The notes under the pieces: model-generated
Told to the model about the DNA's origin: nothing
Seen by the model: only the letters and a program-made list of their open reading frames with translations
Database searches by the model: none
Shown: positions 11,400 to 39,858 of the stretch, one piece after another
Numbering within the stretch: the stretch's first letter is position 1
How the letters are laid out: the number at the start of each line of letters is the position of its first letter
NCBI RefSeq assembly: GCF_963681195.1
Contig: NZ_OY808998.1
Coordinates: 434,001-498,000, forward strand
Source: Vibrio sp. 16
GTDB lineage: Bacteria; Pseudomonadota; Gammaproteobacteria; Enterobacterales; Vibrionaceae
Direction of reading: 5' to 3'
Length of the DNA stretch: 64,000 nt
Position numbers and translations under genes: made by a program

Positions 11400-11430
11400 G
11401 ATACACAATTCAAATGATGCTTACAAATGC

Positions 11431-12549: not shown

Positions 12550-12586
12550 TGTTGTCTCCGTTTAATCAGGTTCGTTTTCCACTCTA

Positions 12587-12780: not shown

Positions 12781-12808
12781 ATTATAGGAAAACTAAGAGC
12801 GCGTTACG

Positions 12809-22378: not shown

Positions 22379-24655
22379 TTAATGAGTGTGTTTTTGCTCA
22401 CGACGCCAGAGTAATAGTCCTCCAAGAAGCCAAAGCCCCCATGAGAACGCGCCTCCCCCTGTGCCGGATTTATTGTTGGTTTTGTTGTTTTCTGTACTGT
22501 CGGTCGTCTGCTCACAGCTATAACGCTCGACTGAACCGATTGCCCATTCGACCAATATCCCGGTATCGCCTATACCGACATCGGAAACTTCCAGTCGCCA
22601 AGTGCCATTAAGCGGCTCCCCAACAAAGGATTGAAGCTGAGGATCATGTTTCGCCACCCAATAGAAACGCTTTTCACTCAGTGAATAACGGGGATTGGCG
22701 ATCAATGTTTGCCTAACTCCCGATGGCGAGACGAGCTCCGCCTGCAAATCGCTCATTTGTTGGTGCTGGAACTTGAGATAGACACCGAAATCTTCAGTGA
22801 CCGTTTGTTTGTCATTGATGATGAAGTTAAAGCTCTTGAATCCAGCGTTGAAGGTACCGTTGCTTGCCAACGAAGCGTCTGGCAACGCGGAATTTTGAAC
22901 CTTTAATGGCTGGCTAAGCTGTGGAATGCCCATAATCAGTGTGCGATTGTCGGTCCAATTGAGCATGCGTAAATCAGGGCCGTACTGGTAACCAATATTC
23001 GCATCCAGTTCAAACGGCTTGGCGCACAACGCCTTACCATCAAGCTGAATCCTTTGGTTTGCGACAGAAAACTTGTCTTGCTTAATGACTGCTTGATGGC
23101 CGCTCGAGGTCATCACCGTTCCATCAACCGAGGCTTGGCGCCCATTGGCAATCAAACGAACCGCCATCGGCTGAGCGGGATCAACGTAACGGCTATCGAC
23201 TTCAAGCACAAACGGCGCTTTCTCTAGACCATGAGTGGCGAAGTTGCGCTTGAGAATGTCGTAATACTCTTTCTCCGGATAAAGCGTCTTGGCGGTGTAC
23301 AAGATGCTCTCAACTAGATCGTGCATCTTCATCCCACGACCAAGGCCAAACATCGACTCCAAGACTAGGGTATCTATTTCGGTGAACGCCTCTTCTCCGT
23401 ATTTTTCGACGCCCTGTTTTAAGGTTTGGAATAAAGGGGTCGACCATAGCTCGTCCCCGAGCTCACCACCGACACTTTCGTGAGCGCGATATTCACTGGT
23501 CTCAAAATACTTCGCGCGTTGGTTCCAAAGACTGCGTGTGGAAATGCGATTGCCGAAATAGCCATCCCAGTTAAATACGGTGTCAATTTCAAATTCTGAG
23601 CCTTGCTGGTGAAGCTTTCTGTAACTTGCCGAGCCTGCCCAGTAGTCAGCAAACCCTTCCGCCATAGCACCGGTGTGGCCATATGCCCAGTCAGGGACAA
23701 TTTGATAATGGATGCCATGGGCAAGTTCGTGAATGACGATATCCGCATCAATCGCATCAGGTGAGCCACCAATACCAAACATTGCCGCCTTTGGGCCAAG
23801 GAAGTAGCTTGAGTTGTTGTTGGATAGCCCTCGACCATCAAACACCACGGGCTCTGTAAATAGCGAATAGCCCAGAGATTCAACATATCGCAACGATTCA
23901 TCGATATGGTAAAACGCCATCACTTGAGTAAAGTCATTGCTGGCAAAGGTGAGCGTGTTTAACTCGCTGAGTTGGCTAAACTGCACAATACCTTCCGGTG
24001 CCAAAAATGACGCGCTGCCACTCTTTACCCAGGTTTTGCTATCTGGTTGATACTCTTCCAAATACTCCGCATCCACTTGCGTCACACGCGAATTCGACAA
24101 GTAGTAATGCTCACCACTTTTTAAGACTTCAACGTTGCGTTCAACAAACCTTGGGGTATTTGGGTAGTCCGCCACATCGAGCCAAGGCAGTTCTGGCGCA
24201 ACATGTCTGTCCATGGTTCTCAGGTCTGGATCCACTACATTCACTGTCGCAGTGACCATCTCCCCTGAAGCCAAAGAGGGTGGATACTGGGCTTTTAAGC
24301 GGCGTGGTGATTCTAACTCAGACGCTTTTGTCGCCTCGCCGTTGCGAATAATGGTGTCGTGCAAACTCTTGAAGACACGTCGCACGATGCCATCTTTGTC
24401 GGTATGGACCACTAAGGCGCGCTGCGGTTGGTATTCGCCGTCCACTGCAATATTGAAATTGTACTGGTGACCGAGTTTGCTCTGCGTTTGATAGCGTAAT
24501 GACACCGTCCCTGCCTCAGGGTAGTGGCGTTGCAAATAGTCTTGCGCCGCAACTGCGTCGCTCACCACTTGGTTGCCTGCAGGATAGTCCCACTCTCCTG
24601 CGCCAACGCCTGTAGAAATCAGCGCTGCGGCGATCAGTGAATAACGTCTCTTCAT
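22379..24655 (-). CDS. Secreted zinc metalloprotease (thermolysin-like/fungalysin-like) with P-domain-like region and GlyGly-CTERM
   Basis: 758 residues from the ATG at 24655 (AAGGA 6 nt upstream). Signal peptide MKRRYSLIAAALISTGVGA; FTP/PepSY-like propeptide to about residue 215; catalytic domain with HELAHGIH (zinc ligands His309 and His313, catalytic Glu310) and third ligand Glu333 in GAMAEGFADYWAGS. From about 600 a P/Homo-B-like beta region (FNFIINDKQTVTEDFGVYLKFQHQQMSDLQAELVSPSGVRQTL in part; LNGTWRLEVSDVGIGDTGILVEW). The tail is Gly-rich, hydrophobic, then RREQKH, a GlyGly-CTERM sorting signal. It overlaps nothing and lies 9 bp from the TonB receptor stop. Substrate unknown; a surface protease releasing haem or peptide from host protein fits the context (inference). 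Confidence 0.88.
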   Translation of the reverse strand: MKRRYSLIAAALISTGVGAGEWDYPAGNQVVSDAVAAQDYLQRHYPEAGTVSLRYQTQSKLGHQYNFNIAVDGEYQPQRALVVHTDKDGIVRRVFKSLHDTIIRNGEATKASELESPRRLKAQYPPSLASGEMVTATVNVVDPDLRTMDRHVAPELPWLDVADYPNTPRFVERNVEVLKSGEHYYLSNSRVTQVDAEYLEEYQPDSKTWVKSGSASFLAPEGIVQFSQLSELNTLTFASNDFTQVMAFYHIDESLRYVESLGYSLFTEPVVFDGRGLSNNNSSYFLGPKAAMFGIGGSPDAIDADIVIHELAHGIHYQIVPDWAYGHTGAMAEGFADYWAGSASYRKLHQQGSEFEIDTVFNWDGYFGNRISTRSLWNQRAKYFETSEYRAHESVGGELGDELWSTPLFQTLKQGVEKYGEEAFTEIDTLVLESMFGLGRGMKMHDLVESILYTAKTLYPEKEYYDILKRNFATHGLEKAPFVLEVDSRYVDPAQPMAVRLIANGRQASVDGTVMTSSGHQAVIKQDKFSVANQRIQLDGKALCAKPFELDANIGYQYGPDLRMLNWTDNRTLIMGIPQLSQPLKVQNSALPDASLASNGTFNAGFKSFNFIINDKQTVTEDFGVYLKFQHQQMSDLQAELVSPSGVRQTLIANPRYSLSEKRFYWVAKHDPQLQSFVGEPLNGTWRLEVSDVGIGDTGILVEWAIGSVERYSCEQTTDSTENNKTNNKSGTGGGAFSWGLWLLGGLLLWRREQKHTH

Positions 24656-24664
24656 GTTCAATCC

Positions 24665-26800
24665 TTAGAACGCGTAACGTGCGTTGACGGTGAAGTAACG
24701 GCCGGACTCTGTTTGGAATGCCTCGTGTAGGCTTTCGAGACCCGCGATATCTTGGTAGCGAATGTACTCGCGATCGAATAGGTTGATGACATTGACACTA
24801 ATATTGGTATTGTTGCCAAAGTCATAGCCTAGACCGATGTCAACGGCACCCCAGCCCGCGGTGGTCGCACAGTCAACCGCGATTTTTTGCTGGTTAACAC
24901 ATACGCTGGTGCGATTCATTTGGTCAGCCCAGTTAAGCTGCACGTAACCGTTAAGCGCTCCATTGTCGTAGTTAAGCGCCACATTACCTTCTAGTGGCGT
25001 GATGGCACGGACGTAATCGCCTTCTTTGTCTTTTCCATCAACGATACCGATGTTAGTGCTGGCGATAATCGTATTGGTGAGGGAGTATTCCACCGACGCT
25101 TCAGCACCGTAGGTTCGAACACCATCTAGGTTGTCAAAGGTCACCTCGGTGATATTGGTTCCTGCGCGTTTACCAACCGTCTTTTGCTCAATGAAGTTTC
25201 TGAATACGTTGTAGAAAACCGCCCCATACACGCGCATAGCGCCATCATCGTACTTGGCACCAATTTCAAAACTGTCACTGGTTTCTTCCTCTAGCTCGAA
25301 GTTAGGCATAATGATGAATGCGCTACCTTGCACGAAATCATGATTCACTAAGCCATAGGTTTTTGAGTATTCTGGCGCGCGATAGCCATGCTTGTAGCTA
25401 AAGTAGCTGTTAAATGCTGGGGTAAATTGATAGGCAATCGACGCACTTGGCGACACCTCACTGCTGTTGTTATCGGGCAGGTCTTCCATCCCAATTGAAC
25501 GGCCGCTGTCAGAGCTCAGGCGGTAGGAGTCATAGCGAAGCCCCAACATTGCACGCCAGTTGCCTACTTCAATAGAGTCTTGAATAAAGGCGCCCACTGA
25601 ATAGCTGGTTGCCGGAGCAAATGGGTTAGTTTGGGTCACTTTCACGCCATGCCAGTCCGTAAGTCTTTCATCGACTGGGCGCTCATGATAGGTCGTTTCA
25701 AACTTACCGCCATAAACCAGCGTATGCTTCAGCTCGCCTTGATACAGTTCTTTCATCATATCTGCAGACCAACCAACCAGCTGATCTTGGAACTGACGAT
25801 TTTCTATCTCACGACGCAACAGGCGTACGCCATTAGAATCACGATACATGAGCTTATTGGAGTCTTCGTTGAACAAGGTGTGTCGGTAGTACACTTTCGT
25901 CTCTAGCGTATCGAGGAGCAAGGTTTCTGACTCGTATTCAGCACCCAACCAAAATAGGTAATTAGATAGCGTTTCGTCTTCGTAAAACGTCTCGATATCC
26001 ATTTTTGCGTCACGTTGAGGAGGTGCGATCCCCTCTTCACGGATCATTTGTTCACGATAGAAATCCGCTTTGGCTTTCAGCATCCATTCATCGTTTAGGT
26101 AGTGCTGGATGGTGTAAGCGGCGCTAAGGCCTTCGATTTCACGGTTCCACAAGTTTTCGTCGTACGATTTGCTCTCTTCACCACTCCAATACGCGGCTTG
26201 AACCAAGGAGCTAGTGTCGCCAAGTGCGAATGCTAAGTTGGATGAGAGCCTATAGCGACTACTGTTGTCGGAATAGTTCGCGGCACCGTCCACATAGAAA
26301 TCCTCACCGTCGAGTAAATCTTCCGGCGAGAGCGATTTAACAATGATCACACCGCCAAGCGCGCCAGAACCAAAACTTGTTGAACTTGCGCCCTTCACGA
26401 CTTGAATCTCTTTTGCAGATGAAACATCAAAGGAGTTATGACCCATCACATCGTTCAAGTCATTGGCACCGTAGCCATCTGATGTTGAAATGCCATCTTT
26501 CACTACAGAAACGCGGTTCCCCGACATACCACGAATCGTGATATTCTGTGCGGTACCCGCCGAGCCAGTCACACTCACACCCGGCTCGTTTTTAAGCACT
26601 TCGTACAGTTCGGTCGCGCCCTTTTTACGCATCTCTTCACCGTCAATGACCGAGACAGAGCCTGCGGTTTTTGACAATGATTCTTCGTATTTATTGGCAG
26701 TGACGACCACCTCTTCAAAGGTGCTGACGTTAGATTCCGCGTGTACAAGGCCTGCCGCCAGTGCAGTCAGCACAGCAACATTGACTCGTGAAAGTTTCAT
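24665..26800 (-). CDS. TonB-dependent outer-membrane receptor
   Basis: 711 residues. Signal peptide MKLSRVNVAVLTALAAGLVHA; TonB box region FEEVVVTANKYEE; plug domain with ELYEVLKNEPGVSV, NITIRGMSGNRVSVVKDGI and VVKGASSTSFGSGALGGVI; then a 22-strand-type barrel ending in the typical C-terminal Phe (YFTVNARYAF). The plug resembles the haem/haemoglobin/transferrin-type receptor group; no FRAP/NPNL haem signature was recognised, so the ligand is open. It sits in an operon with two proteases and behind a Fur-box match, which favours iron or haem uptake. About 15 bp separate it from the S9 peptidase gene. Confidence 0.92.
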   Translation of the reverse strand: MKLSRVNVAVLTALAAGLVHAESNVSTFEEVVVTANKYEESLSKTAGSVSVIDGEEMRKKGATELYEVLKNEPGVSVTGSAGTAQNITIRGMSGNRVSVVKDGISTSDGYGANDLNDVMGHNSFDVSSAKEIQVVKGASSTSFGSGALGGVIIVKSLSPEDLLDGEDFYVDGAANYSDNSSRYRLSSNLAFALGDTSSLVQAAYWSGEESKSYDENLWNREIEGLSAAYTIQHYLNDEWMLKAKADFYREQMIREEGIAPPQRDAKMDIETFYEDETLSNYLFWLGAEYESETLLLDTLETKVYYRHTLFNEDSNKLMYRDSNGVRLLRREIENRQFQDQLVGWSADMMKELYQGELKHTLVYGGKFETTYHERPVDERLTDWHGVKVTQTNPFAPATSYSVGAFIQDSIEVGNWRAMLGLRYDSYRLSSDSGRSIGMEDLPDNNSSEVSPSASIAYQFTPAFNSYFSYKHGYRAPEYSKTYGLVNHDFVQGSAFIIMPNFELEEETSDSFEIGAKYDDGAMRVYGAVFYNVFRNFIEQKTVGKRAGTNITEVTFDNLDGVRTYGAEASVEYSLTNTIIASTNIGIVDGKDKEGDYVRAITPLEGNVALNYDNGALNGYVQLNWADQMNRTSVCVNQQKIAVDCATTAGWGAVDIGLGYDFGNNTNISVNVINLFDREYIRYQDIAGLESLHEAFQTESGRYFTVNARYAF

Positions 26801-26815
26801 GATGGCTCCGGTTCG

Positions 26816-28825
26816 TTATTCCGATTTTTGTAATTGTTTAATAAGAAATGCGTATTCCATCGCTTGGCGTTGTGAAGACTTGCGCTGATCCGTAGCGTGT
26901 CCACTTTCAAAATCTGTCTCTAGAAGATAGGGACCAGTGCCTGAGCTGGTCGCTTCTAGTTGTGAGAGGTATTTGGCGCCCTCCCAATAAGGCACTCGGC
27001 GATCATGCCAACCAACGCGAACAAGCGTTGCAGGATAGTTAGCAGAGGTAAGATTTAAGATGGGATCGTACTGCGCCATTTTCGCCCGCTCTTCAGGAAT
27101 CGATGGGGTTCCCCACTCCTGAAACTGTTGCGCTGTCAAAGGTAGCGTCGAATCTGACATACTCGCGACAACATCGACAAATGGGACCGTCAGGCTCGCC
27201 GCGCTGAATAGCTGTGGAGCTTGGTTGAGCGCACCAGCGACTAAGGTTCCCCCTGCGCTCGAGCCGATTGCCGCCACTTTTCGCTGACCCTTTTTGTAAG
27301 TCGACATCGCTTTTGACACAGCAACAAAGTCTTTGATGCCGTTGATTTTATTGACCCCGCGCCCCGACTGATGCCAAGCTTCGCCAAAGTAGCCACCACC
27401 ACGAACATGAGCAATCGCATAAATGATCCCGCGATCCATCAATGAGATTGTCTGCGGCATAAAGTAAGGCTTCATCGTAAACCCATACGCACCATATCCA
27501 TAAACCACCACAGGAGATCGCTCAGTCAGCATTGACGTCTTGTACGCCAGAGTCACAGGAACCTGAACACCACCCGATGGGATGAATATCGTTTCTGTAT
27601 GGTACTCTTCGGCTTGGTATGACGGGTACGTATCTTCGCTCAATCGGCGACGGGTTAACGTAGAAACATCGAACTCTTCCCAAAGCGCAGGTTGGGTCAT
27701 CGACATTGAACGAATACGCAGTTTGTCGCTGGCGTAATCCCCAACTCGACTCAGCCAAGCGACGCTGCCTGAAGGAGAAAGTAATTCTCGATGTTGCTCC
27801 CGACCACGGTGGTTTAAAATGACGAGACTTTTTTGTCCTTGCTTCTGTTCAATCGCCGCAAGGCCTGATTGGAAAACGTAGTAAGTTTGCAATTCTGCGC
27901 CTGAGCTAGTCGCGTAGATGACCTGCCAGTCCGAATCCTTTAGCGAGCTTGAGTATAGAGCGAACTGACCATCACGGTTGCTTTGTACATACAGCTTGCC
28001 CTTGGCGATGTCTGCGTAGTACTCGAAGCCCTCACGTCTTTTGGCTAACGGGGCTGACAACTCACCATTCGACAGATCAAGAACGCGCTGTTCGCTGGCA
28101 GATTCAGAGTTGCTTTGCACAATGGCAAATTGGCGATCGCTAGCTAGGTAGGCAGAGACAAGCCATGATTGATCCGTCTCGGTGTAAACGTCCGTGACTT
28201 TTCCACCCACTAGCGAATAACGCACCAATCGACTTGGTCTGGCATCCTGAACCGTTTTCACGATGCCATACACACTCTTGCTATCGGCAGACCAAATCAC
28301 AGTAGTGTCACCGTTGGCATTAAAGCGCTGCTCTTTACCAGTGGCCACTTCAACCACCACCATTTGGTACTGCTCGTTACCAACTAGGTCTTCAGTAAGG
28401 GCAATTTTTCGTCCATCTGGGCTGACTGACCAGCCACCAAGCTGATAGTAGTCATGCTGGTTTGCTCGCTGTTCGATGTTGAGTAGATCAACGATTTGAG
28501 ATGAATTGGCGTCTCTGACTCTCAGCCATCGTTGACCTTCTACGCGGGTGACCAGATACTCTTTTCCATCACGGATCAGCCATGGCTGACTGCCACGCTG
28601 TACGCGATGATTTGCCCACTCGTCTTGAAGCGCATCGCTCAGAGGTTGGAGGGCTTGTTGGAATTGTTCGACTTGACGATTGCGCTGCTCAAGATAGCGA
28701 ATTACCTTGGCATTTGAGCGAGAATCGTCTCGAAGCCATTGATGGTTTTGCTCACTCTCTTCACTCGCAATAGCATTTGATGCTAATACTGAAAAAGAAA
28801 GCAAAATAATATTCACTAATCTCAT
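26816..28825 (-). CDS. Secreted S9-family (oligopeptidase B / prolyl-oligopeptidase-like) serine peptidase
   Basis: 669 residues from the ATG at 28825. This gives a normal signal peptide (MRLVNIILLSFSVLASNAIA); the ATG at 28873 is nearly inside the Fur-box/promoter zone and is less likely. N-terminal seven-bladed propeller region (WSVSPDGRKIALTED, VIWSADSKSVYGI) and C-terminal alpha/beta-hydrolase with Ser523 in GSSAGG, Asp608 in VGWHDRRVPYW and His643 in ESGHATDQ. The nearest known family is oligopeptidase B/prolyl oligopeptidase, usually cytoplasmic; here it is exported. It is the first gene of a five-gene operon and probably trims peptides in the periplasm. Confidence 0.9.
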   Translation of the reverse strand: MRLVNIILLSFSVLASNAIASEESEQNHQWLRDDSRSNAKVIRYLEQRNRQVEQFQQALQPLSDALQDEWANHRVQRGSQPWLIRDGKEYLVTRVEGQRWLRVRDANSSQIVDLLNIEQRANQHDYYQLGGWSVSPDGRKIALTEDLVGNEQYQMVVVEVATGKEQRFNANGDTTVIWSADSKSVYGIVKTVQDARPSRLVRYSLVGGKVTDVYTETDQSWLVSAYLASDRQFAIVQSNSESASEQRVLDLSNGELSAPLAKRREGFEYYADIAKGKLYVQSNRDGQFALYSSSLKDSDWQVIYATSSGAELQTYYVFQSGLAAIEQKQGQKSLVILNHRGREQHRELLSPSGSVAWLSRVGDYASDKLRIRSMSMTQPALWEEFDVSTLTRRRLSEDTYPSYQAEEYHTETIFIPSGGVQVPVTLAYKTSMLTERSPVVVYGYGAYGFTMKPYFMPQTISLMDRGIIYAIAHVRGGGYFGEAWHQSGRGVNKINGIKDFVAVSKAMSTYKKGQRKVAAIGSSAGGTLVAGALNQAPQLFSAASLTVPFVDVVASMSDSTLPLTAQQFQEWGTPSIPEERAKMAQYDPILNLTSANYPATLVRVGWHDRRVPYWEGAKYLSQLEATSSGTGPYLLETDFESGHATDQRKSSQRQAMEYAFLIKQLQKSE

Positions 28826-28879
28826 TATAAACAACGCAACATACAAATTATTAATAGGCGCCGAAGTTTGCATGAGAAT

Positions 28880-28898
28880 GGTAATGAGATCAATTATC
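28880..28898. promoter_or_regulatory. Fur box upstream of the S9-TonB-protease operon
   Basis: The 19 bp match the Fur consensus GATAATGATAATCATTATC at 14 positions by hand alignment, 55 bp before the S9 peptidase start. It supports iron control of the operon. The neighbouring GAGAATGGTAATGAGATCA register matches at only 11. Confidence 0.65.
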
Positions 28899-29043
28899 GT
28901 TTACAGATAAATGTGATTTAGATCTCATTGGTGAGCGAATTTTATAGAGTAATTGCTTTATCTGGTGAAGAAGTGTTCCTGTGTTTTATCAGGAACACCA
29001 ATGATGTGGGTGAATAGTTATCCCATAATATGCAGCGAATCCG

Positions 29044-30042
29044 TTATTGAATTAGTCTAACGACCAACGATCCCGGCGCTCGAACTGACTCAACATTGTG
29101 GCTTATGACGGTACCGTTAATCGGCGAGTAGTAAACCTCGATTTCATCACCGAAACTATTGTATTGCGTTGCCAATTTCTCCCCTTCACAAACCGTTTGC
29201 ATTAAGTCGACATGGCAGATTACGAACCCCCCTTGGCTTGCTCTGACACTGACAATTTGCTCGCCTTCCACGCAAGGCACCTCAGATTCGTCCACATTGC
29301 CTGACAGCGCTTCATAAGACTTAAGAATGTTCATCACCCCTTTGGTTGCTCGCTCTACCATCACTAAATCGGTGTAGCGGCCAATGCCAACCTCTATCGT
29401 GATCGAAGGAATGCCGGCGCGGTTGTAAACCGTTTCCAAAATGCCAGGGTCACCGGGATCATTAAGAATAACGTCGGGGTTAATGAGCCTAGCCATACGA
29501 ATCGCATCTTCTAGGCGGTAATCAGCAAACGCATACAAGGGATAAGCACTGCCGCTGGTTTGGGAATGGAGATCGATAGCCAGATCCGCATTGGGTTTGA
29601 GCAGATTCTCCCACAAACTGTTTGCGTAGCGGCTTGCGTCATCACCAGTAGGGCTACCCGGGAAGACGCGATTAAGATTCGCAGATGAGCTATCCGGCGC
29701 GGCGGAGTGAAAGTCTCGGCTATGGCGGGCAATGCCTGACAGGTTAACCGTAGGAACAATCGTCACGACGCCCGCAATGGCTTTGCCGACGAGCTCCCGA
29801 GCGATTTGCTGCGCCGTTAAAATACCATTTTGCTCGTCACCGTGAACACCTGCTGTGATCATAAATCGCTTACCCGGATTTTGACCTTTAAACACTCTCA
29901 CTGGCAGTGTTTGCGGATGGCCAATAGCATCCGTTGCCACAGCAAACCAAAACTTGTGCTCCCCCGCCTCTAACGCGTTAACGTCTAGCGCTTGAATGGT
30001 TGGGTACATAGGGACGATACACTCGTTCAAAGGTTTGCTCAT
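29044..30042 (-). CDS. Aspartoacylase / succinylglutamate-desuccinylase-family zinc hydrolase
   Basis: 332-residue M14-type deacylase. Zinc ligands His67 and Glu70 in ITAGVHGDEQNG and His159 in AIDLHSQTSG; substrate-type Asn-Arg in NLNRVFPG (about 123-130); catalytic Glu217 in SITIEVG. C-terminal beta domain of the AspA type from about 255. The family removes an acyl group from an N-acyl amino acid or amide. It is not AstE itself: no astCAD genes are near. It stands 170 bp downstream of the EamA-dioxygenase-ligase operon in the same direction, beyond that operon's terminator, so a functional link is possible but unproven. Confidence 0.85.
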   Translation of the reverse strand: MSKPLNECIVPMYPTIQALDVNALEAGEHKFWFAVATDAIGHPQTLPVRVFKGQNPGKRFMITAGVHGDEQNGILTAQQIARELVGKAIAGVVTIVPTVNLSGIARHSRDFHSAAPDSSSANLNRVFPGSPTGDDASRYANSLWENLLKPNADLAIDLHSQTSGSAYPLYAFADYRLEDAIRMARLINPDVILNDPGDPGILETVYNRAGIPSITIEVGIGRYTDLVMVERATKGVMNILKSYEALSGNVDESEVPCVEGEQIVSVRASQGGFVICHVDLMQTVCEGEKLATQYNSFGDEIEVYYSPINGTVISHNVESVRAPGSLVVRLIQ

Positions 30043-30182
30043 TCTTTACTCCGATTGTTCTCTGGGCAGGCCATTGCCTCTTAGTTCGCCTTCATAGTAA
30101 CCGATGTGTAAAGAAGATCCATCCTCTGGGTATTAGGCTTTATTTTACGATGAGGATTCAACGCTTTAGAACGTGATGCAGG

Positions 30183-30208
30183 AAAAAGAAAACCGGGCAT
30201 TCGCCCGG
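30183..30208 (-). terminator. Terminator of the ligase-dioxygenase-exporter operon
   Basis: Six-bp GC stem (30193-30198 with 30203-30208), tetraloop, followed on the minus strand by TTTTCTTTTT. It lies just past the EamA gene stop. Confidence 0.85.
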
Positions 30209-30213
30209 CTTGG

Positions 30214-31119
30214 TTAGCTTTCTCGGGTTGAAGTGACTATCACACTGAACAAGATAAGTGCCCCACCAGCAAGTTGGGTTACACTCAACGTTTCTTGCAG
30301 CCAGACCATAGCGAAGATCGCACCGAATAACGGCTCACTGCCCATTAGCAAGGAAACACGAGTAGGCGAGGTTCTGCGCACCGCGTAGTTTTGGACATAA
30401 AAGGCAAACAGCGTACAAAACAGCACTAAGTACGCAACCGTAATCCAAAACTCCGTCGAGGTCGGCAACACAAACTCCGACGCAGGTAGAAACGCGACTG
30501 CGCCAACAATCGCACATGACGCCACAACCAACGACTGAAGTGAGGTTAACGTTGAGGTGGTAATCTCTTTGCCCTCAGTAAACCGTTTGGTTAACGTCAC
30601 CATCAGCGCACGTAGCAGCGCCGCGGTCAGAATAAAGTAATCGCCCGTATTTAACGAAAACTCGATCCCTTGTTCACTGGTCAGCAGCAAAACCCCCACC
30701 ACACTACAGACGGTGAGACCAAGTAGGGTATTGCTTACGCGCTTTTTGTTAATTATCAGTTCCGCGAAGGCCGTTAAGATCACGGTCAAGCTGATCAAAA
30801 AGGCCGCATTGGATGCCGAGGTCTGAGAAACCCCAAACACTTCGCAGAAAAAAATCGCCGATAGAATAAAGCCGGTCGGTATTGCTATCTTCCAATCTTT
30901 ATTGAGCCCTCGGCGAAAGTCTCGAATCACTACAGGTAGCATACATAAAAAAGTGATTGAGAAACGTATCGTAATGAAGAGTAAAACACTGGTATACACT
31001 AAGGCACTTTTTGTGAGCCCGTAACTGGTTCCCCAAAATACCGCCACCAAAAGCAGCAATGATTCTGTTACTGGAAACTTAAAACTTCCTTTTTTTAACG
31101 AACTCGCAGCCGTAGTCAT
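30214..31119 (-). CDS. EamA/DMT-family transporter, probable exporter
   Basis: 301 residues with ten predicted membrane helices in two homologous five-helix EamA halves (ESLLLLVAVFWGTSYGLTKSAL at the start of the first; RTSPTRVSLLMGSEPLFGAIFAMVWLQE in the second). Members export amino acids and related metabolites. It starts one base after the stop of the dioxygenase gene, so it is co-translated with it and is probably the exporter of the product of that pathway (inference). Confidence 0.88.
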   Translation of the reverse strand: MTTAASSLKKGSFKFPVTESLLLLVAVFWGTSYGLTKSALVYTSVLLFITIRFSITFLCMLPVVIRDFRRGLNKDWKIAIPTGFILSAIFFCEVFGVSQTSASNAAFLISLTVILTAFAELIINKKRVSNTLLGLTVCSVVGVLLLTSEQGIEFSLNTGDYFILTAALLRALMVTLTKRFTEGKEITTSTLTSLQSLVVASCAIVGAVAFLPASEFVLPTSTEFWITVAYLVLFCTLFAFYVQNYAVRRTSPTRVSLLMGSEPLFGAIFAMVWLQETLSVTQLAGGALILFSVIVTSTRES

Positions 31120-31120
31120 A

Positions 31121-31864
31121 CTATTCCTCCATTTTTGTAAAAGCGATCACGAGTACATCCCGGTACGCGCATTTGTCTGAACTCTCAGGTCGAATTGGTG
31201 AGACTTCGTGCATGGTTTGCTCATCGTCCGCCATCACGACATCAAACGTTTTATCCAACACTAAGGTCTCCAACTCTTGTTTGTTTGCATCGGTGATGGT
31301 AGTCAGCCCTCCCATCACATTGATTTTGTTGATCATCAGCGACGCAATGTAGGTGACACCATCACGATGCAAACCTTCCGGTGTGGGCTGTCCCAACTCG
31401 GAATCATCAGCAATGATTCGGTAAGGGTGGAGCCGAATATTCCACTTGGTTGGCTTACCTTCTGCGCCATCGTAAATGTCACTCATCAATTGCAGCAGTC
31501 GCTCCAAAATCGGCGAAGTCACAAAGCGGTCTGTCAACGGTTCAAAGTGACGTTCAATATCACCATTGAGCTGGTTAATGTAAGAAGGCTGAACATAAGG
31601 TTCATGAGGCAACATGGTAATCTCATGGCTGCCCGGCAACTTCATAAACTGACCATATCGGCGATAGCGATACGTACCGCCGTCTGCCATGTATTGATCC
31701 CTTTCCAAGTGATTCCAACAGTTTTTAAAACGAATCACCTCATCGACGTTGGTTTGCAGTAAGGACGTCATGTGCTTACCGCTGACAAAGACATATTGAT
31801 TTTGCGCCAATATTTGCGTAATCACTGAAACGTTACGACTCGCGACCTGTTTAACGCTCTCCAT
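31121..31864 (-). CDS. 2-oxoglutarate/Fe(II)-dependent dioxygenase (PF10014 type)
   Basis: 247 residues from the ATG at 31864 (GAGGTG about 8 nt upstream); an in-frame extension to 32098 would overlap the ligase gene and is rejected. Iron-binding facial triad His-x-Asp in PTPEGLHRDGVTYIAS and distal His in QTMHEVSPI. The pattern GxHRDG-(Y)-(I)-(A)-S with RLHPYRI upstream fits the 2OG-Fe dioxygenase group that includes Bacillus L-isoleucine 4-hydroxylase and other free-amino-acid hydroxylases. The likely reaction is hydroxylation of a free amino acid or its conjugate in the cytoplasm. It is the middle gene of a three-gene operon. Confidence 0.82.
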   Translation of the reverse strand: MESVKQVASRNVSVITQILAQNQYVFVSGKHMTSLLQTNVDEVIRFKNCWNHLERDQYMADGGTYRYRRYGQFMKLPGSHEITMLPHEPYVQPSYINQLNGDIERHFEPLTDRFVTSPILERLLQLMSDIYDGAEGKPTKWNIRLHPYRIIADDSELGQPTPEGLHRDGVTYIASLMINKINVMGGLTTITDANKQELETLVLDKTFDVVMADDEQTMHEVSPIRPESSDKCAYRDVLVIAFTKMEE

Positions 31865-31880
31865 AAATTGCACCTCTCTA

Positions 31881-33095
31881 CTACACTGCTTGATGGGCTT
31901 TTTGCGGTTGAGTATCCAACGGCAAGGAGCGCTGGCTTCGTTCATGAGCCACTTCCACTTCCCAACGGTCACGATCACACAGATACCTTGGGTTTTCCGC
32001 CACGATACTTGTCGCCAGAGCACTTCCTCTGGTGAGATTGAATAGAACACTGCCAGAAATGAATTCCGCAGTGTGGGCGATGAACGCATAGCTGGCATTT
32101 TGCATCATGCTGCCAAAGCGACCTTCAACCGCTTCTTGTGTCCACATGTCGTTATGCATTGCTTTTGCTTTGAGAACATCGGTAGGTAAAGCTGCTGTTT
32201 CCAGCAGCTTGTAAGCCTTCATCAGGAGTGTTGCGGCGGGTGCTTCGCGCACCTCTAGTACCTTTTCGTCCTGATCGAGATGGTCGAACCCTACATATCG
32301 GCCAATCTCGTACGCGCCAACGTGGTTGTTAATGAAGGTAATTAACTCAAGTAAATTAATGGGCTGATCGTTCAAGGTGACAGGGTAGCCTTGACGAAAG
32401 CCAATCTTAATTTGATCGTTTTCTAGATGTTTTTCTGGCTGCCAACGCGACCAGGTAAACAGAGATTCTGAAACGGTGAATTGTTCTGGGTTGTCGAGAA
32501 CGCCAGACTCAAACTCACGACACCAAAGGTTGGAGTCACCGCTCACATTGCGGCTTTTAAAACCAACTAAACCTGAATGGAAAAGTGCTTTGGCTTTCTC
32601 TTCTCTTGTAAGCGCGGAATACTCATAAGGAGAGCCATAAAACCCATCAAAGCCCGAGCGCTCAATCGCGCCATTAAGACGACGTAAACTGTTTTGTGAC
32701 TGGTTGGCGGTATGAATAATCGCATCACAGCCAAGGATTTCCGCCAGCTCCACCGCTTTTTTGACAATAATTGGGCGTGAGAGTGACGAGCTAACAGGGT
32801 AATCCCCTAGGTACATGGATTGAGCCTGAATCGCGGACACTAAGCTGTGTTCAACGAACTCCTGCTTTGCATCGATGATCTTAAGATCGAAGCCGTAGTG
32901 ATCGGTGATGAGCTTTAGGTTCGATTCTTCGATACCATCACCCAAGTCGACCGCGACAGCCGTGACTTTTGCGTGACTATTTTTGAGTAGTTCTAATACA
33001 TATGAGCTATCTAGCCCCCCACTGAATAAGGTCAAAATATGCTTCGAAACGTCAGCAACTGCCTGAACATCCTCGATACTTCTGATCTTCTTCAT
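31881..33095 (-). CDS. Argininosuccinate-synthase-like ATP-dependent ligase
   Basis: 404 residues of the ArgG fold. ATP PP-loop LTLFSGGLDSSYVL near residue 22; then GDGIEESNLKLI, YLGDYPVSSSLSRPIIVKKAVELA, a segment in place of the ArgG GATGKGND motif (HTANQSQNSLRRL, about 146-158), NLWCREFESGVLDNP (ArgG: ENLWGRS) and GAYEIGRYVGFDHLDQDEKVLEVREAP. The general frame is conserved but citrulline/aspartate-site segments differ, so it is not ordinary ArgG (which would sit with other arg genes). It probably joins two amino-acid-like substrates through an adenylate. First gene of the operon, divergent from a LysR gene; the dioxygenase follows after 16 bp. Confidence 0.8.
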   Translation of the reverse strand: MKKIRSIEDVQAVADVSKHILTLFSGGLDSSYVLELLKNSHAKVTAVAVDLGDGIEESNLKLITDHYGFDLKIIDAKQEFVEHSLVSAIQAQSMYLGDYPVSSSLSRPIIVKKAVELAEILGCDAIIHTANQSQNSLRRLNGAIERSGFDGFYGSPYEYSALTREEKAKALFHSGLVGFKSRNVSGDSNLWCREFESGVLDNPEQFTVSESLFTWSRWQPEKHLENDQIKIGFRQGYPVTLNDQPINLLELITFINNHVGAYEIGRYVGFDHLDQDEKVLEVREAPAATLLMKAYKLLETAALPTDVLKAKAMHNDMWTQEAVEGRFGSMMQNASYAFIAHTAEFISGSVLFNLTRGSALATSIVAENPRYLCDRDRWEVEVAHERSQRSLPLDTQPQKAHQAV

Positions 33096-33200
33096 GTTTC
33101 ACGTCCTTTATTATTTTTAGTTGTTGTCAATTGACTTAATTAGTATCTATAAGTAACTTGAGCGAAACAATATAGCCATAATGCAAAGGATAATTGCGCC
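33096..33200. promoter_or_regulatory. Divergent ligase-operon / LysR promoter region
   Basis: 105 bp containing the perfect palindrome GTCAATTGAC (33126-33135) inside a longer AT-rich, roughly symmetric stretch; it has the T-N11-A character of LysR-type sites. It probably serves both the ligase operon and autoregulation of the LysR gene. Confidence 0.45.
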
Positions 33201-34109
33201 ATGGACACAAATAAGCTTATTCCGCTACTTTCAGAGATGGCAATCTTCGTAAATGTTGTGGAGTCGGGCAGCTTCTCAAAGACCGCCAAAAAACTTGGTG
33301 TATCCCCGTCATCCGTGAGCCGATCGGTCACTAGGCTAGAGAACGCGTTGGAAGAAAAACTGCTAGAGCGCACCACTCGCCAGATGCGTCTTAGCTCAAC
33401 CGGGCAAGAGGTTTATAGCCTGTGTAGTGACATGATGAACTCTGCCAAAATGGCGGTTTCTGCGGCGCAGGTCGATAAAACCGATGTTTCAGGTAGCCTA
33501 CGTGTTGCAGCGCCAAAAGCATTGTCTCGCCAAGTACTTATGCCGATGATCCTCGACTTTATCGACGACTACCCCAACGTGTCGTTGCAGCTCAAAGTCG
33601 CCGACCACTACATTGATCCGATTGGCGATGAAGTGGACATCATCATTATGATCACCAACAAACCAACGGAAGGGTTGATCGCCAAACCTTTAGGTCAATG
33701 TCGATTGGTTTTGTGCGCAAGTCCAGCCTATATCGAAGAATATGGGATGCCGATTCACCCAGAAGACATTTCAAGCCACAACTGTTTGTGTTTAGGGGAG
33801 AATCCTCGCGACCGAGTTTGGGAATTTACTAACAATAACAAGCGTGTATCGATTAACGTTAACGGCTCATTTGTTGTGAACCACAGCGAAATTCGCCGTG
33901 AAGCTGTGTTGCGTGGGGTAGGTATTTCGGTCTTTCCAGAGTTCGCTATTCAATCGTATATCGACTCTGGGCAAGTGGTAGAAGTCTTGCGAGACTGGCA
34001 CGTAGGCGGCAACTATCAAGGCAAAATCATCGCCCAATACGCGCAATCGAAGTACATCCCAAGCCAGATCAAGACTTTTATTGAGTACTTGCAGCAAAGA
34101 TTAGTGTAA
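33201..34109 (+). CDS. LysR-family transcriptional regulator
   Basis: 302 residues. N-terminal winged helix-turn-helix (MAIFVNVVESGSFSKTAKKLGVSPSSVSRSVTRLE, about 13-47, in segments) and a C-terminal effector domain from about 95. It is divergent from the argininosuccinate-synthase-like operon, the usual LysR arrangement, so it most likely activates that operon with a pathway metabolite as co-inducer. It ends at a bidirectional terminator. Confidence 0.9.
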   Translation: MDTNKLIPLLSEMAIFVNVVESGSFSKTAKKLGVSPSSVSRSVTRLENALEEKLLERTTRQMRLSSTGQEVYSLCSDMMNSAKMAVSAAQVDKTDVSGSLRVAAPKALSRQVLMPMILDFIDDYPNVSLQLKVADHYIDPIGDEVDIIIMITNKPTEGLIAKPLGQCRLVLCASPAYIEEYGMPIHPEDISSHNCLCLGENPRDRVWEFTNNNKRVSINVNGSFVVNHSEIRREAVLRGVGISVFPEFAIQSYIDSGQVVEVLRDWHVGGNYQGKIIAQYAQSKYIPSQIKTFIEYLQQRLV

Positions 34110-34118
34110 TCCAACTAA

Positions 34119-34147
34119 AAAAAGTGAAGCCTGAGACTTCACTTTTT
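34119..34147. terminator. Bidirectional terminator between LysR and oxidoreductase genes
   Basis: Eleven-bp stem (34119-34129 with 34137-34147) with an A run on one side and a T run on the other, between convergent genes. Confidence 0.88.
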
Positions 34148-34169
34148 AGGTGCGAACGCTTGGGTGTCC

Positions 34170-35102
34170 TTATCGCTTCGACGCGTTCAAACGAGCGACA
34201 AGCGCCTCTGCAAGTTGATGGGTAGCAATGTTGCGCTCGACGATATGGCTCGCCAGTTGCCCCGCCCTGATCACCGACAACCAGTCTTGTATCATTGCTT
34301 CAAAACCCTTTGTCGTTAGCATTGGTGTCCAATCTTTCAATGCTAACGCCACCTCTTGCCCCTCTTCCCATTGGCGACCAGCCATAAAGGAATCAAATTG
34401 CAGCGCCTTATTTTGGTAGGTTGCCGAGACCCTTTCTGTGGTCACACCAAACTGACGATTCATTGAAGCATGGAGCAGCGTTTCGCCGGCCTGCCACTGA
34501 ATATCTAGCCGACCTAACTGCTCACCCACCCATTGTTGGGTGACATAGGCGTCGTTTATGTCCGCTCGACAATCTAAGTTAACGCTATCAAGTGGATGGA
34601 TAAAATCATCAAATACGAACGTTCTCACCTCACCAGATAGATTATGACGATGCTTCTCCCAACGAAGAGAGGTTAATGCCCCACATCGACCATTAGCGAC
34701 TTCCGGCAAGTAGTGATTATAGAGAGGAATATGACGACGATTATAACCGACATAAAGCGGCGCGTTATGCTTGCTCGCAATGTCATACAGTTCCATGACA
34801 TCTGCGGCATTGTCCGCTAATGGCTTATCGACAAACGTTGGGATGCCTAGCTGCAAAAAATAACTCGCGATCTGCTTATGCACACTCGTGGCAGCATGAA
34901 TCATTACGGCGTCGACCCCGAGCCGAGGTAAATCGCGATAGTCATGACAGGTTTGCCCCACTCGATATTGCTCAGACAATACCTGCAAAGCGTCTGAGCT
35001 TCGGGTACAAAATATAGGCTCAACATCAGCCAGTTGAGTGATAATGGGAAGGTATGCCTTCTGAGCGATATCACCTAGGCCAATAATGCCAATTTTCATC
35101 AT
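34170..35102 (-). CDS. Gfo/Idh/MocA-family NAD(P)-dependent oxidoreductase
   Basis: 310 residues from the ATG at 35102 (GGAG 8 nt upstream); the extension to 35201 overlaps the MFS gene and is rejected. N-terminal Rossmann motif MKIGIIGLGDIAQKAYLP, catalytic-lysine region PTFVDKPLADNAADVMELYD (Lys of the EKP-type motif in VDKP, about residue 93), then the C-terminal alpha/beta domain. Members oxidise or reduce sugars, inositols and pseudo-sugars. It follows the MFS gene by 4 bp, so transport and oxidation of one substrate are linked. The substrate is not evident. Confidence 0.88.
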   Translation of the reverse strand: MMKIGIIGLGDIAQKAYLPIITQLADVEPIFCTRSSDALQVLSEQYRVGQTCHDYRDLPRLGVDAVMIHAATSVHKQIASYFLQLGIPTFVDKPLADNAADVMELYDIASKHNAPLYVGYNRRHIPLYNHYLPEVANGRCGALTSLRWEKHRHNLSGEVRTFVFDDFIHPLDSVNLDCRADINDAYVTQQWVGEQLGRLDIQWQAGETLLHASMNRQFGVTTERVSATYQNKALQFDSFMAGRQWEEGQEVALALKDWTPMLTTKGFEAMIQDWLSVIRAGQLASHIVERNIATHQLAEALVARLNASKR

Positions 35103-35106
35103 TGTT

Positions 35107-36288
35107 TTAACTCCACTTAAGCATGCGTACTTCGTTGCCCTCTTCAGGCTTTCTTGGGATATTGAGCGACAACAACAAACTGACCATCGCCATCCCAGCA
35201 CCGATATAAAACACGGCAGAGGGAGAGATTAACCAAATAAATCCAAACGACACTGGGATGAATACCGCAGCAATATGGTTGATAGTAAACGACACACCCG
35301 CTGTAGAGGCCATGTCAGCAGGGTCGGCGATTTTTTGGAAATAGGTTTTAATCGCAAGGGCTAAGGCAAAGAATAGATGGTCGATAACATACAGCGCGGC
35401 CGCCCATTCTGCAGTTTGAACCATTGCGTATCCAACAAACACACCAATTAAGCCAACATACTCAAAAATCAGCGCTTTCCGCTCGCCCACTTGACCAATG
35501 AATTTACCAATTCTTTTTGCAAACAAGAAGTTAAATAGGTAGTTGATAAGAAACAGCAAGGTAATATCTGCAGCCGAATAGCCAAATTTTTCGACCATCA
35601 AAAACCCTGCAAAAACGGTGAAAATTTGTCGACGAGCACCACTCATAAAGGTTAATGCGTAGTAAAGCCAATATCGCTTGCGCAACACCAACTTTTTATT
35701 CTGAGGGACTTTCGACTGAAACTCGGGAAAGGCAAACGCCATCCAAACCACCAGCAAGAATCCGACCCCACCGAACGTTAAATAAACCCATTTGAAGTCC
35801 ATATGGAAGACTTCAAGGCAGAACCACAGAGCCCCATAAGTACACAGTGAGGCAAGCGCGCCTATCGATATAAACTTACCCAACATTTCCGGCGCTTCAT
35901 CTTTCGATAACCACTGAAGTGACAGCGATTGCTTGAGGGTTTCGAAGTAGTGGAATCCAATCGACATGAGTAAGGTCGTCATCAGCAAGCCAAATAGCGT
36001 GGGAAAGAATCCGGTAATCGCAGTGCCCAGAGTAAGCGCCGCAAGCGAGAGTAAAATAAAACGCTGCTCACGAATAAAAAGAAGGACGAACACGGCGGTA
36101 AACGCAAGGAAACCGGGGATTTCACGTACACTTTGCAACAAGCCAATATCGGCGCCATCAAAGCTCGCTTTTTCTATCACAAAGTTGTTTAGCAACGCCA
36201 TCCAGCTTGAGAAAGCGATAGGGACAACAATGGAAACCACCAACAGGAAGTTCTGCGGCGTTTTCCACGATGTGGATTCAGAGTTCAT
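35107..36288 (-). CDS. MFS transporter
   Basis: 393 residues with about twelve hydrophobic segments; loop 2-3 and the central charged loop (PEFQSKVPQNKKLVLRKRYW) fit the major facilitator layout. No substrate-specific motif recognised. First gene of a two-gene operon with a Gfo/Idh/MocA oxidoreductase; a 7-4-7 palindrome lies 30 bp upstream of the start, so it is probably controlled by a specific repressor not encoded next to it. Confidence 0.85.
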   Translation of the reverse strand: MNSESTSWKTPQNFLLVVSIVVPIAFSSWMALLNNFVIEKASFDGADIGLLQSVREIPGFLAFTAVFVLLFIREQRFILLSLAALTLGTAITGFFPTLFGLLMTTLLMSIGFHYFETLKQSLSLQWLSKDEAPEMLGKFISIGALASLCTYGALWFCLEVFHMDFKWVYLTFGGVGFLLVVWMAFAFPEFQSKVPQNKKLVLRKRYWLYYALTFMSGARRQIFTVFAGFLMVEKFGYSAADITLLFLINYLFNFLFAKRIGKFIGQVGERKALIFEYVGLIGVFVGYAMVQTAEWAAALYVIDHLFFALALAIKTYFQKIADPADMASTAGVSFTINHIAAVFIPVSFGFIWLISPSAVFYIGAGMAMVSLLLSLNIPRKPEEGNEVRMLKWS

Positions 36289-36317
36289 AAATCATCCTTG
36301 GTTTGAAGAATCGCTCC

Positions 36318-36335
36318 GAAACGAATACTCGTTTC
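36318..36335. promoter_or_regulatory. Operator-like palindrome upstream of the MFS/oxidoreductase operon
   Basis: GAAACGA-ATAC-TCGTTTC, a perfect 7-bp inverted repeat with 4-base spacer. Half-sites resemble LacI/GalR-type half-sites (GAAACG) but without the central CG; the regulator is unknown. Confidence 0.5.
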
Positions 36336-36489
36336 CAAACATTCAGAGTCATAGGTTTTGATGCGCCATTCAATATGGAATAAAGTGCGCAACCTCAGCG
36401 AACTCTAACACGTTATTCTCGTTTCTTCTGCTCAAATGTCACGTCTAAGGTCTCTCAAAGCAGAATCCATTCATATCTTCAAGAGCACT

Positions 36490-36533
36490 AAAAAAGACAC
36501 CTCCAATAGGCTTTGCAACCTAAGTGGAGGTGT
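36490..36533 (-). terminator. Terminator of the tricorn-like protease gene
   Basis: Nine-bp stem ACACCTCCA / TGGAGGTGT (36497-36505 with 36525-36533), followed on the minus strand by six U. It lies 28 bp past the stop. Confidence 0.88.
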
Positions 36534-36561
36534 TCATTGGTGAAGTGCTATTGGTTATTGC

Positions 36562-39500
36562 TTATTGCTTATCGAGCTGCTTTAACATGGCCTCCACTGC
36601 GACTTCAAGTTGTCGATCTTTGTTCTTGGCGACATCTTCTGGCGATTTGTAGACCAAGATGTCAGGGACAATTTCTTGGTTTTCAAACCAATTGCCGTTG
36701 TCATCTTTGAAGCCTAACTGTGGCACACCATAGTTGATCCGAGACTCTTGCAGGCTTGGCCAAATTACCGCCGTCCCCGTCCCTGGTACGCGCTCGCCGA
36801 CTAACATTCCTAGCCCCTCTCGCTTATAGAAGAATGGCGTGATAGAACCATCAGAGTAGCTGTTCGCATCGGCAATCATAATGCTTGGTTTTGCCCAGCG
36901 TCTTTCTGGGAATGACGTCAATTTATACCCATCACGAGTTTCAATCGAGCTGTGACGTACACCAGAAAGCACCTCCATCAATTGACTAGTCAGGTTGCCG
37001 CCCATATTAAAGCGCACATCCACAACCACCGCTTCCTTGTCGCGGTACTTGCCAAACAGATCATTCTGCATTCGCTCAAAGCTATCTGGCCCCATTTCAG
37101 CTAAGTGGACATAGCCAAGTCGACCATTCGACAGTTTTTCCGTCAGCGCTTGACGCTCCTCAACCCACGCATCATAAGCCAGTTGCCCTTCTTGCCAAAC
37201 GCTAATTGGAACAAGCTTAAAGTCTTGAGCTGATTCATCACCCGGCTTCAATACATTGAGTTTGGTGACACGCCCCTGCTTAAAGTTGAGGTGGGAGTAA
37301 ATGTCTTGATTTGGCGCAATCTCTACCCTATCTACAGAGTAAATAATACTGCCCGCTTTGATTGGAGACTGGTAGGTATCCGCAGGACCGCCTGCCAATA
37401 CCGCTTTTACTCGCACGCCTTTGCCTCGGTAATTGTGATCATAAAACAGACCGAGCGAAGACGGCTCTTCCCAAGTACTTAGCGAATCATCAAACTGGGA
37501 GCCCGTATGAGAGGCGTTCAATTCACCGGCAAGCTCGCTCAGTAGCTCAGCAAAATCAATGTAGTTGTGAATACCCGGAAGCTGCTGTTTGTACAACTCA
37601 CCATACTTATCCCAATCAACACCGTGCATGTTCGGGTCGTAGAACTTCACTTTGGTCAACTGCCACACATGGTCAAACATGGCGCCAACTTCGGCTGAAA
37701 AGTCGTAATTGGCCTGTGCTGCGTAGTCAATGTATTCGCTCTCGGCTGTCACAACATTGAGCTTCTCGATGCCTTGATCGCCAATGATCACCAAGGTTTC
37801 ATCATCGGGTGCCATGGCAGCAGCGCGAACGTCGTAGTAACTGCGAGTGAACAGAGGTGTGCGCTCTCCGGTTGTTAGATCAATCTCAAAGATTTCCGCA
37901 TTATCCCCTTCAGCACTGATGACCACCATATACTGATTGTTTGCCGATAAGTGAGTGAACATCGGTGACGTCGAGTAAGCAGTGACGCGCTCAGTTCGAT
38001 ATTTCAGCCCCTTCTCTTCAATGATGCTTGGCTCAGGTGGCGAGTTTTCAGCATCACTCTCTTGGTTTGCTGCAATCTCTTCATCAAGCCAACGCTGTTC
38101 ATCGGTCTTATTGGCATTAAACTGCGCTTGCTGGTTTAAGTAAGTGATGTAGATATCTTGCTGCTGGGCGAAGCCATCAATGCCATAAGTAGAATTGGCG
38201 TTACTCAACCAATACACCGCTTGGCCATCTTGGGAGAATTTCGGGCGATTTTGGGTAAACCCGCTCTTAGTGATATTGATTGGCGCTTCACTGCCATCGG
38301 CTTTGATCAGAACAACGTCACTGTCTAACTCAGAGTTGTTGCGCGTCGCCACATATTCACTATCTGGGGACCAGCTGTAAGACAAATCCCCATCCATGTA
38401 GGAATAGAGCGCTTGATTGTCCAATAAGGTGTACGTTGCATCTTGCTCAAGATCGTACACTTTCAGCGTATTACGATCTTCTCGATACAACACGCGCTTA
38501 CCATTCGGTGAATAGAGCGGTTGGAACTCATCGACTGGTTTATCAGACAATTGCTCTTCGACAATATCATACGATGTCGAGAAGCTTTTCCCCGTGTCAT
38601 TCACATAACTTTGGAATACATCCCAGTTACCGTTTCGCTCCGACGCATACATGATGGAGTAGCCGTCGTTTGAAAATGAGATGTCTCTCTCTGCCGCTGG
38701 TGTGTCGGTAATTCGTTTCGTCATGCCAGATAATAGCGACACAACGTACACATCTCCACGGGCAACAATCGCCACTTCAGGCGCGTATGGTGAGACCGCG
38801 ATTTCCGTCGCTTCATGATTCAAAGTCACAAAGCGTCGTCCCTGATTTAGCGAGGTTTGACGAATAAACACATCAACAGGCTCTGCGTTTGCCTGCTCTG
38901 CTTTCTTAAGCCAGATTTGGCCATTGTAACCGTAGGCGAGATCACCGCTTAAACTCGCACTGAGGAAACGAACAGGTAAGGTGTCATGGTTGGTGATTTG
39001 CTCTGGCTCGGCGCCATCCTCCATGCGCTTTTTCCACACATTGAATGACCCAGAACGTTCAGACAAATAGTAAAAGCTTGAGTCATCACTCGCCCAAACG
39101 GCATTTCTGTCTTCGCCGCGAAACGAAGTGAGTTTACGATGCTGCTTCGTTTGCGTGTCATAACGCCAAATGTCACGAGTAGCGTCTGAAACTGCTCGCT
39201 TTCGCCACTCTTGCTCAAATGAAGGCTCATCCGTATAGAGATATGCGGTGCCATCCGGCTTCATTGACAACGCACTCACTGGATTTGATAACAGCAGCTT
39301 CTCGCGTCCACCTTCGCTTGATACGGAATACAAGCGCTTGCTGCTATTGCCCATAAAGCCGTTATTTAGCGTTGCGTCACTGTCACCAAGTCGTCTTGAA
39401 CTGAACAACACCTCTGAACCATCAGAACTAAATTCGTATGGCACGTCGGCGCTTGAGTGATAGGTCAACCTTTTCGCTTGTCCACCAGTAACGGGCACGA

Positions 39501-39804: not shown

Positions 39805-39839
39805 AATGTTCCTTTATTATTATTTTTAAAAGATAATTA

Positions 39840-39858
39840 CTTATCGTAGTACGATAAG
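39840..39858. promoter_or_regulatory. 19-bp perfect palindrome upstream of the tricorn-like gene
   Basis: CTTATCGTA-G-TACGATAAG, a perfect 9-1-9 inverted repeat 36-54 bp before the start of the protease gene, in its 5' untranslated or promoter region. Candidate operator; the regulator is unknown. On the plus strand it is followed by TTTTT, but no gene ends there. Confidence 0.55.

Follow-up and report, generated by a model that had tools for sequence, protein, structure and literature searches.

A compact argininosuccinate synthase-related cassette of Vibrio sp. 16 that probably makes and exports a hydroxylated cyano-amino acid

The subject of this analysis is a three-gene operon in Vibrio sp. 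16, located in a 64,000-nucleotide stretch of contig NZ_OY808998.1 (positions 434,001 to 498,000; hereafter the window, with positions counted from its first letter) that belongs to contig C2 of a three-contig, 4.66-Mb genome. The operon is transcribed from the minus strand in the order ligase, dioxygenase, EamA exporter, its genes standing head to tail with gaps of 16 bp between ligase and dioxygenase and 1 bp between dioxygenase and exporter, and 105 bp separate the ligase gene from a divergent gene for a LysR-type regulator. Comparisons were made with the best 80 of 150 confirmed related loci. The features of the locus are the following.

31881..33095, minus strand: argG_rel ligase, 404 aa, a predicted ATP-dependent amide-to-nitrile synthetase (NF038212; PDB 9leh/9lei; Q134/S185/D187, a signature common to the 80 related loci)
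31121..31864, minus strand: PF10014 Fe(II)/2-oxoglutarate (2OG) dioxygenase, 247 aa, which is predicted to hydroxylate the small molecule that the ligase handles (PF10014 score; invariant H166/D168/H219/R235)
30214..31119, minus strand: EamA/DMT exporter, 301 aa (PF00892; gene order in related loci)
33201..34109, plus strand: divergent LysR-type regulator, 302 aa (PF03466 and PF00126; divergent homologue in related loci)
33126..33135, no strand assigned: palindrome GTCAATTGAC in the divergent promoter
33183..33197, no strand assigned: GCAAAGGATAATTGC, an imperfect inverted repeat that adjoins the start of the LysR gene and is a candidate LysR site
30190..30211, minus strand: hairpin resembling an intrinsic terminator, downstream of the exporter gene (-15.7 kcal/mol, z -2.9)

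Open reading frames and family profiles placed only the ligase, dioxygenase, and EamA genes in the operon. The dioxygenase start was set at the ATG at 31864, which matches the start in relatives; a longer overlapping open reading frame from 32098 is also listed. A fold as good as that of the hairpin was obtained in only 1 of 200 shuffles, and the hairpin was also among the sites returned by a terminator scan, which is no evidence by itself because 4.6 sites were expected in it and 7 were returned. The operon is a self-contained three-gene unit, closed by a terminator-like hairpin and facing a LysR gene, and its parts, coordinates, gaps, opposing regulator, and terminator are as described in an original prediction made by a model from the sequence alone.

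The ligase scored 624.9 bits against the NCBIfam model NF038212 (argG_rel; curated cut-off 425), a family that NCBI labels only as "argininosuccinate synthase-related." Pfam ArgG domains were detected in it and five NCBIfam ArgG models matched it, all below their cut-offs (TIGR00032: 182 vs 268.2 bits), and a separate ArgG is encoded on contig C1 (450.9 bits). The profile search that the original prediction had proposed as a check thereby bore out its view that the ligase stands outside canonical ArgG. The ligase and ArgG have in common their domains, the ATP-site motif, and the residues aligned to the citrulline-side N and R of ArgG, which were invariant in 39 of 39 aligned rows (window included), and the motifs SGGLDSS, SLSRPIIVKK, and NLWCREFESGVLDNP are all present. 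They differ at the aspartate-contact residues: where the genome's ArgG reads TGKGND the ligase reads NQSQNS. At the sites of T118 and D123, the aspartate contacts of ArgG, the ligase has N131 and S136, and 9leh likewise has N and S. Among the same 39 rows, the first site is N in 38 and the second S or T in all; of the 80 related loci, 78 have N in place of the T, and every one has S or T in place of the D. The ligase of Vibrio sinaloensis AD048 (L004) is 100% identical over 404 residues.

The closest solved structure to the ligase is PDB 9leh/9lei, named "nitrile synthetase" (E 5e-96), and the nearest ArgG follows at E 5e-34. The amide-interacting residues of ArtA are reported as Q146, S197, and D199 (PMC13060819). 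In the 9leh chain, Q, S, and D occur at index 175, 226, and 228, a constant offset of 29, and by this offset, its name, and its fold we infer that 9leh is ArtA. Their counterparts in the window ligase are Q134, S185, and D187, and the ligase therefore carries the ArtA-type amide-interacting set. The Q134 site, occupied by Gly in the genome's ArgG, is Gln in 79 of 80 related loci and His in one; S185, D187, R193, E194, and R283 are each kept in 79 of 80, the remaining row being a gap, and the last three are shared with 9leh but not with the genome's ArgG. In a quick tree built from 79 loci, 9leh, and ArgG (81 rows), 9leh fell inside the ligase family beside L059, by a long-branch join flagged as unsure. 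Because the nearest solved relative is named a nitrile synthetase, the ArtA amide residues are kept, and the aspartate-contact pair is missing, dehydration of an amide to a nitrile is far likelier than the joining of two amino acids.

The nearest comparison is ArtA/NitB, a nitrile synthetase that resembles ArgG, acts in the auranthine pathway, and has a structure that we take to be 9leh/9lei: it belongs to the same protein family by sequence and shares both the three amide-interacting residues and the R193/E194/R283 set. It differs in being fungal and part of a nonribosomal peptide synthetase (NRPS) pathway, and it is not known to lie in a dioxygenase/exporter cassette. ToyM/QueC and PesC also form nitriles through an amide at the expense of ATP (PMC13060819), and unlike the ligase family they begin at a carboxylate, add the nitrogen, and belong to other protein families.

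The dioxygenase scored 206.6 bits against PF10014 (gathering cut-off 23.1), and H166, D168, H219, and R235 were the same in all 29 rows of an alignment that included the window protein; we take these to be the Fe and 2OG ligands, with an HxD...H iron triad. Against the model of the isoleucine 4-dioxygenase HilB (NF042428), it reached 42.1 bits, with a cut-off of 350. In a quick tree of 63 rows with long outer branches, a single branch separated the cassette dioxygenases, including a natural fusion described below, from four solved PF10014 chains and a second Vibrio PF10014 protein. The dioxygenase belongs, as originally expected, to a family acting on free amino acids; for the PF10014 enzymes described in PMC3684760, the site of hydroxylation is C4 and the substrates are Ile, Leu, and Thr. 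The IDO operon of Bacillus thuringiensis and the Hil operon resemble the Vibrio cassette in having a PF10014 enzyme that hydroxylates a free amino acid, an RhtA-type exporter, and a presumed secreted antimetabolite amino acid (PMC3684760) and, in the Hil operon, a LysR gene; they differ in having a reductase and no nitrile synthetase. The window operon contains no such reductase gene (AR/HilC).

The second PF10014 gene lies on contig C1 (L113:2611-3273, minus strand) and is overlapped downstream by a gene for a cysteine-desulfurase-like pyridoxal phosphate enzyme (411 aa, by eye). At 27% identity and outside the cassette branch, its product was rejected as close kin of the cassette enzyme; PF10014 proteins of some kind occur in 117 of 148 Vibrio genomes.

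The ligase and the dioxygenase are partners that belong together. A PF10014-type gene lies directly downstream of the ligase on the same strand in 54 of the 80 related loci, and EamA directly follows it in 51 of those 54; a LysR homologue stands divergently beside the ligase in 40 of the 80, and the exporter and regulator thus accompany the ligase as had been proposed. Among 148 Vibrio genomes, argG_rel exceeded its cut-off in 16 (the window's own included) and in none of 14 control genomes, and a PF10014 match lay beside it in all 16 carriers. The original prediction had named absence of this co-occurrence as grounds for its rejection; the related loci, the Vibrio carriers, and the fusion all speak for the co-occurrence. 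The distance matrix of the ligase correlated with the matrices for the dioxygenase (r 0.82, 52 loci, two of the 54 being left out for short sequences), EamA (0.91, 50 loci), and LysR (0.94, 41 loci), with 0 of 2000 permutations as high, and the presence of the dioxygenase required 5 changes among loci on the ligase tree (7 with outgroups), as against about 23 for shuffled labels.

The cassette is portable and sporadically carried, on some plasmids among other places. When 369 genomes were drawn from the class, argG_rel was present only in the window's own genome. The carriers span Vibrio, Burkholderiales, actinomycetes, and conjugative plasmids of rhizobia, and one cyanobacterial locus (L046) and one myxobacterial locus (L049) are also among them. 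In a Lysobacterales metagenome-assembled genome (L051:9917-10474), the ligase frame covers only part of the gene, unlike at other loci, possibly through a frameshift or an assembly error. Ligase relatives at E 1e-40 were found in 9 of 72,556 plasmid records, of which seven were examined (H1 and H5 were left out; L112 lacked annotation). The order DMT transporter, ligase, 2OG-Fe dioxygenase occurs on three plasmids, from Rhizobium (L107), Mesorhizobium (L108), and Agrobacterium vitis (L109), and a Bradyrhizobium plasmid (L106) has ligase and dioxygenase with no transporter in its gene table, which is known to be incomplete. On plasmid L110, from Rhizobium sp. 007, argG_rel (residues 14-392) and PF10014 (457-649) are joined in one 654-aa protein; the fusion and the plasmid layouts strengthen the link between ligase and dioxygenase. 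Carriage of the pair by conjugative rhizobial and Agrobacterium vitis plasmids (L106-L110) suggests a role in plant association. Near the cassette of Mesorhizobium huakuii (L108) lie a YqcI/YcgG-family gene (PF08892; 1161-1907, minus strand) and an annotated NRPS gene (9020-13167).

A plasmid of Sulfobacillus thermotolerans (L111) carries a more distant relative of the ligase followed by a TauD-family dioxygenase and an EamA exporter, and the layout therefore exists with dioxygenases of two Pfam families. This ligase keeps the Q, S, and D residues together with R193 and R283 and falls below the ArgG cut-offs. The best solved relative of its partner dioxygenase is the asparagine oxygenase AsnO (2og5; E 3e-55), which belongs to the same broad enzyme class as the window dioxygenase and to a different Pfam family. 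No AsnO-like dioxygenase was found in the 80 loci at E 1e-4; PhyH-type dioxygenases occur in four of them, at a distance of about 1.8 kb from the start of the ligase in two loci and of 6-7 kb in the other two.

The exporter matched PF00892 with 118.1 bits (cut-off 28.2), and the regulator matched the substrate domain PF03466 with 134.4 bits (cut-off 28) and HTH_1 PF00126 with 68.5 bits (26.6). In Actinoplanes (L067), a LysE translocator occupies the place expected of EamA, and this replacement points to an amino acid-like exported product. The same Actinoplanes cassette is flanked by a gene for a carbon-nitrogen hydrolase (PF00795, nitrilase superfamily; L067:12545-13363, minus strand), which could be a coincidence or a means of self-protection. 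Alignment of 15 divergent promoters (the window and 14 relatives) retained the full GTCAATTGAC palindrome in 8 rows, and of the palindrome only the ATTGAC half was invariant in all 15; further invariant blocks were ACAAT and GCAAAGGAT..TTGC, the latter within 33183-33197 adjoining the LysR start. The imperfect repeat GCAAAGGATAATTGC at that place is a candidate LysR site and could equally be a ribosome-binding site. A scan for sigma-70-like sites returned 0, with 5.1 expected by chance.

Considered together, we hold it probable that the cassette is a three-gene pathway to an exported hydroxylated cyano-amino acid, formed by a nitrile synthetase, a hydroxylase, and an exporter; a small amino acid-derived metabolite, as originally proposed, remains the best reading of the locus. 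The ligase would bind the side-chain amide of L-Gln, L-Asn, or a hydroxylated form of either where ArgG binds the ureido group of citrulline, and ATP would activate the amide oxygen as in ArgG; because the ligase is without the site for the aspartate nucleophile, AMP would leave to give the nitrile. The dioxygenase would hydroxylate the same small molecule before or after this step, EamA would export the product, which may serve as an antimetabolite or weapon, and LysR would control the operon. The source amino acid is likely Gln or Asn: the side chain of auranthine points to Gln, and the AsnO-like partner points to Asn in the Sulfobacillus version.

Several observations weigh against this interpretation. 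Nitrile formation rests on homology to ArtA (described in PMC13060819), whose identity with 9leh is itself read from name, fold, and residue offset. The related loci came from a pattern-seeded search and are biased toward close relatives, and the distance correlations can arise in part from species descent. No PF10014 neighbour is present in 26 of the 80 loci (23 actinobacteria and three Burkholderia or Paraburkholderia), and hydroxylation by this family is therefore not universal. The Sulfobacillus ligase has V at E194 and only 270 bits for argG_rel (cut-off 425), and the PF10014 substrates named in PMC3684760 are Ile, Leu, and Thr, not amides.

Two versions of the hydroxylated cyano-amino acid both fit the data. 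In one, the dioxygenase acts at a carbon other than the one bearing the nitrile, and the product would be a stable beta-hydroxy cyano-amino acid mimicking serine or threonine; we regard this as a distinct possibility, albeit a doubtful one. The Sulfobacillus partner resembles hydroxylases of Asn, Arg, and Lys that act at C3, and in Salmonella enterica subsp. diarizonae (L050:1001-14250) the ligase-dioxygenase pair follows a 2990-aa NRPS with three adenylation domains and precedes a gene for seryl-tRNA synthetase, possibly a self-resistance copy. This synthetase was matched by phmmer in only one of the 80 loci and was rejected as a general self-resistance gene, and the PF10014 enzymes described in PMC3684760 hydroxylate C4. 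In the other version, which we put forward tentatively as an unlikely outcome, the product is a cyanohydrin amino acid, HO-CH(CN)-, a secreted cyanogen able to release hydrogen cyanide (HCN) outside the cell. Since C4 of Gln and C3 of Asn adjoin the amide, family-typical hydroxylation together with dehydration would give a cyanohydrin; AsnO oxidises C3 of the free amino acid. If true, the cyanohydrin reading would describe a mobile cyanogenic route independent of the glycine-oxidising HCN synthase and assembled on at least two occasions, each time with a dioxygenase from another family. The Gln nitrile without a hydroxyl is cyanohomoalanine, which, according to PMC13320846, is incorporated by the E. 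coli MetRS and slows growth only marginally at the highest dose tried; we speculate that hydroxylation could be what makes it potent.

The original prediction had envisaged that a hydroxylated amino acid undergoes ATP-dependent, ArgG-like condensation with a second amino acid and is then exported; stated more broadly, a second amine would be joined to give an amidine or guanidine. The retained ArgG domains and the invariant equivalents of the citrulline-side N and R agree with this scheme, which is nevertheless improbable: the aspartate-contact T and D are replaced across the related loci as they are in 9leh, Gln stands where ArgG has Gly, the ArtA amide residues are kept, and the nearest solved relative is named a nitrile synthetase. 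The condensation step was accordingly judged probably wrong.

The nitrile amino acid may serve as a free compound or be incorporated into peptides, given the NRPS and adenylation neighbours of the ligase at four loci. Besides its NRPS, the Salmonella locus has a phosphopantetheinyl transferase-like gene (by eye) and is apparently a nitrile-containing peptide cluster; its ligase-dioxygenase DNA had no blastn match in E. coli genomes. At three of the actinobacterial loci without PF10014 (L053, L061, L078) the neighbours are adenylation/carrier, ATP-grasp, and PhyH-type dioxygenase proteins. These four loci and the Mesorhizobium plasmid (L108), where the ligase has genes of NRPS, adenylation, or ATP-grasp type in its vicinity, favour the view that the cassette of Vibrio sp. 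16 also feeds a larger molecule, a peptide or NRPS product, in place of a free amino acid. We consider this very doubtful: the window operon includes an exporter gene and ends at the hairpin, no NRPS gene was seen by eye among the window's open reading frames in 24000-40000, and genes outside the LysR/three-gene unit vary between genera (29 loci by eye), some being common to Vibrio. That the ligase is a canonical second argininosuccinate synthase, as its Pfam ArgG domains could suggest, is for practical purposes ruled out by its sub-cut-off scores against all five matched NCBIfam ArgG models, the lost aspartate motif, and the separate ArgG on contig C1.

Beyond the hairpin, an aspartoacylase-like deacylase gene (29044-30042; AstE_AspA_cat, 138.4 bits, cut-off 25) is next in line after the terminator, as the original prediction had noted. 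Homologues of it occur in 12 of the 80 loci. Eleven of these loci are from Vibrio, and there the gene starts no more than 0.6 kb from the exporter in 6 and lies 2.4-6.9 kb off in 5; beyond the terminator and inconsistently placed even in Vibrio, it was judged unlikely to be a cassette member. The Gfo/Idh and MFS neighbours at 34170-36288 have homologues in 8 and 11 of the 80 loci and were set aside as not conserved.

No description of a bacterial cassette of this kind appeared among the papers listed by the literature searches, which did not reach papers behind subscription, among them the one on the structure of ArtA. Each enzyme belongs to a known kind; their combination did not appear among the papers listed. 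The evidence turns the argG_rel family into a testable prediction, that of a compact nitrile-forming pathway across several bacterial groups. If true, it would open a class of secreted cyano-amino acids that could act as antimetabolites, protease warheads, or cyanogens, and it would supply small enzymes that use ATP to convert amides into nitriles.

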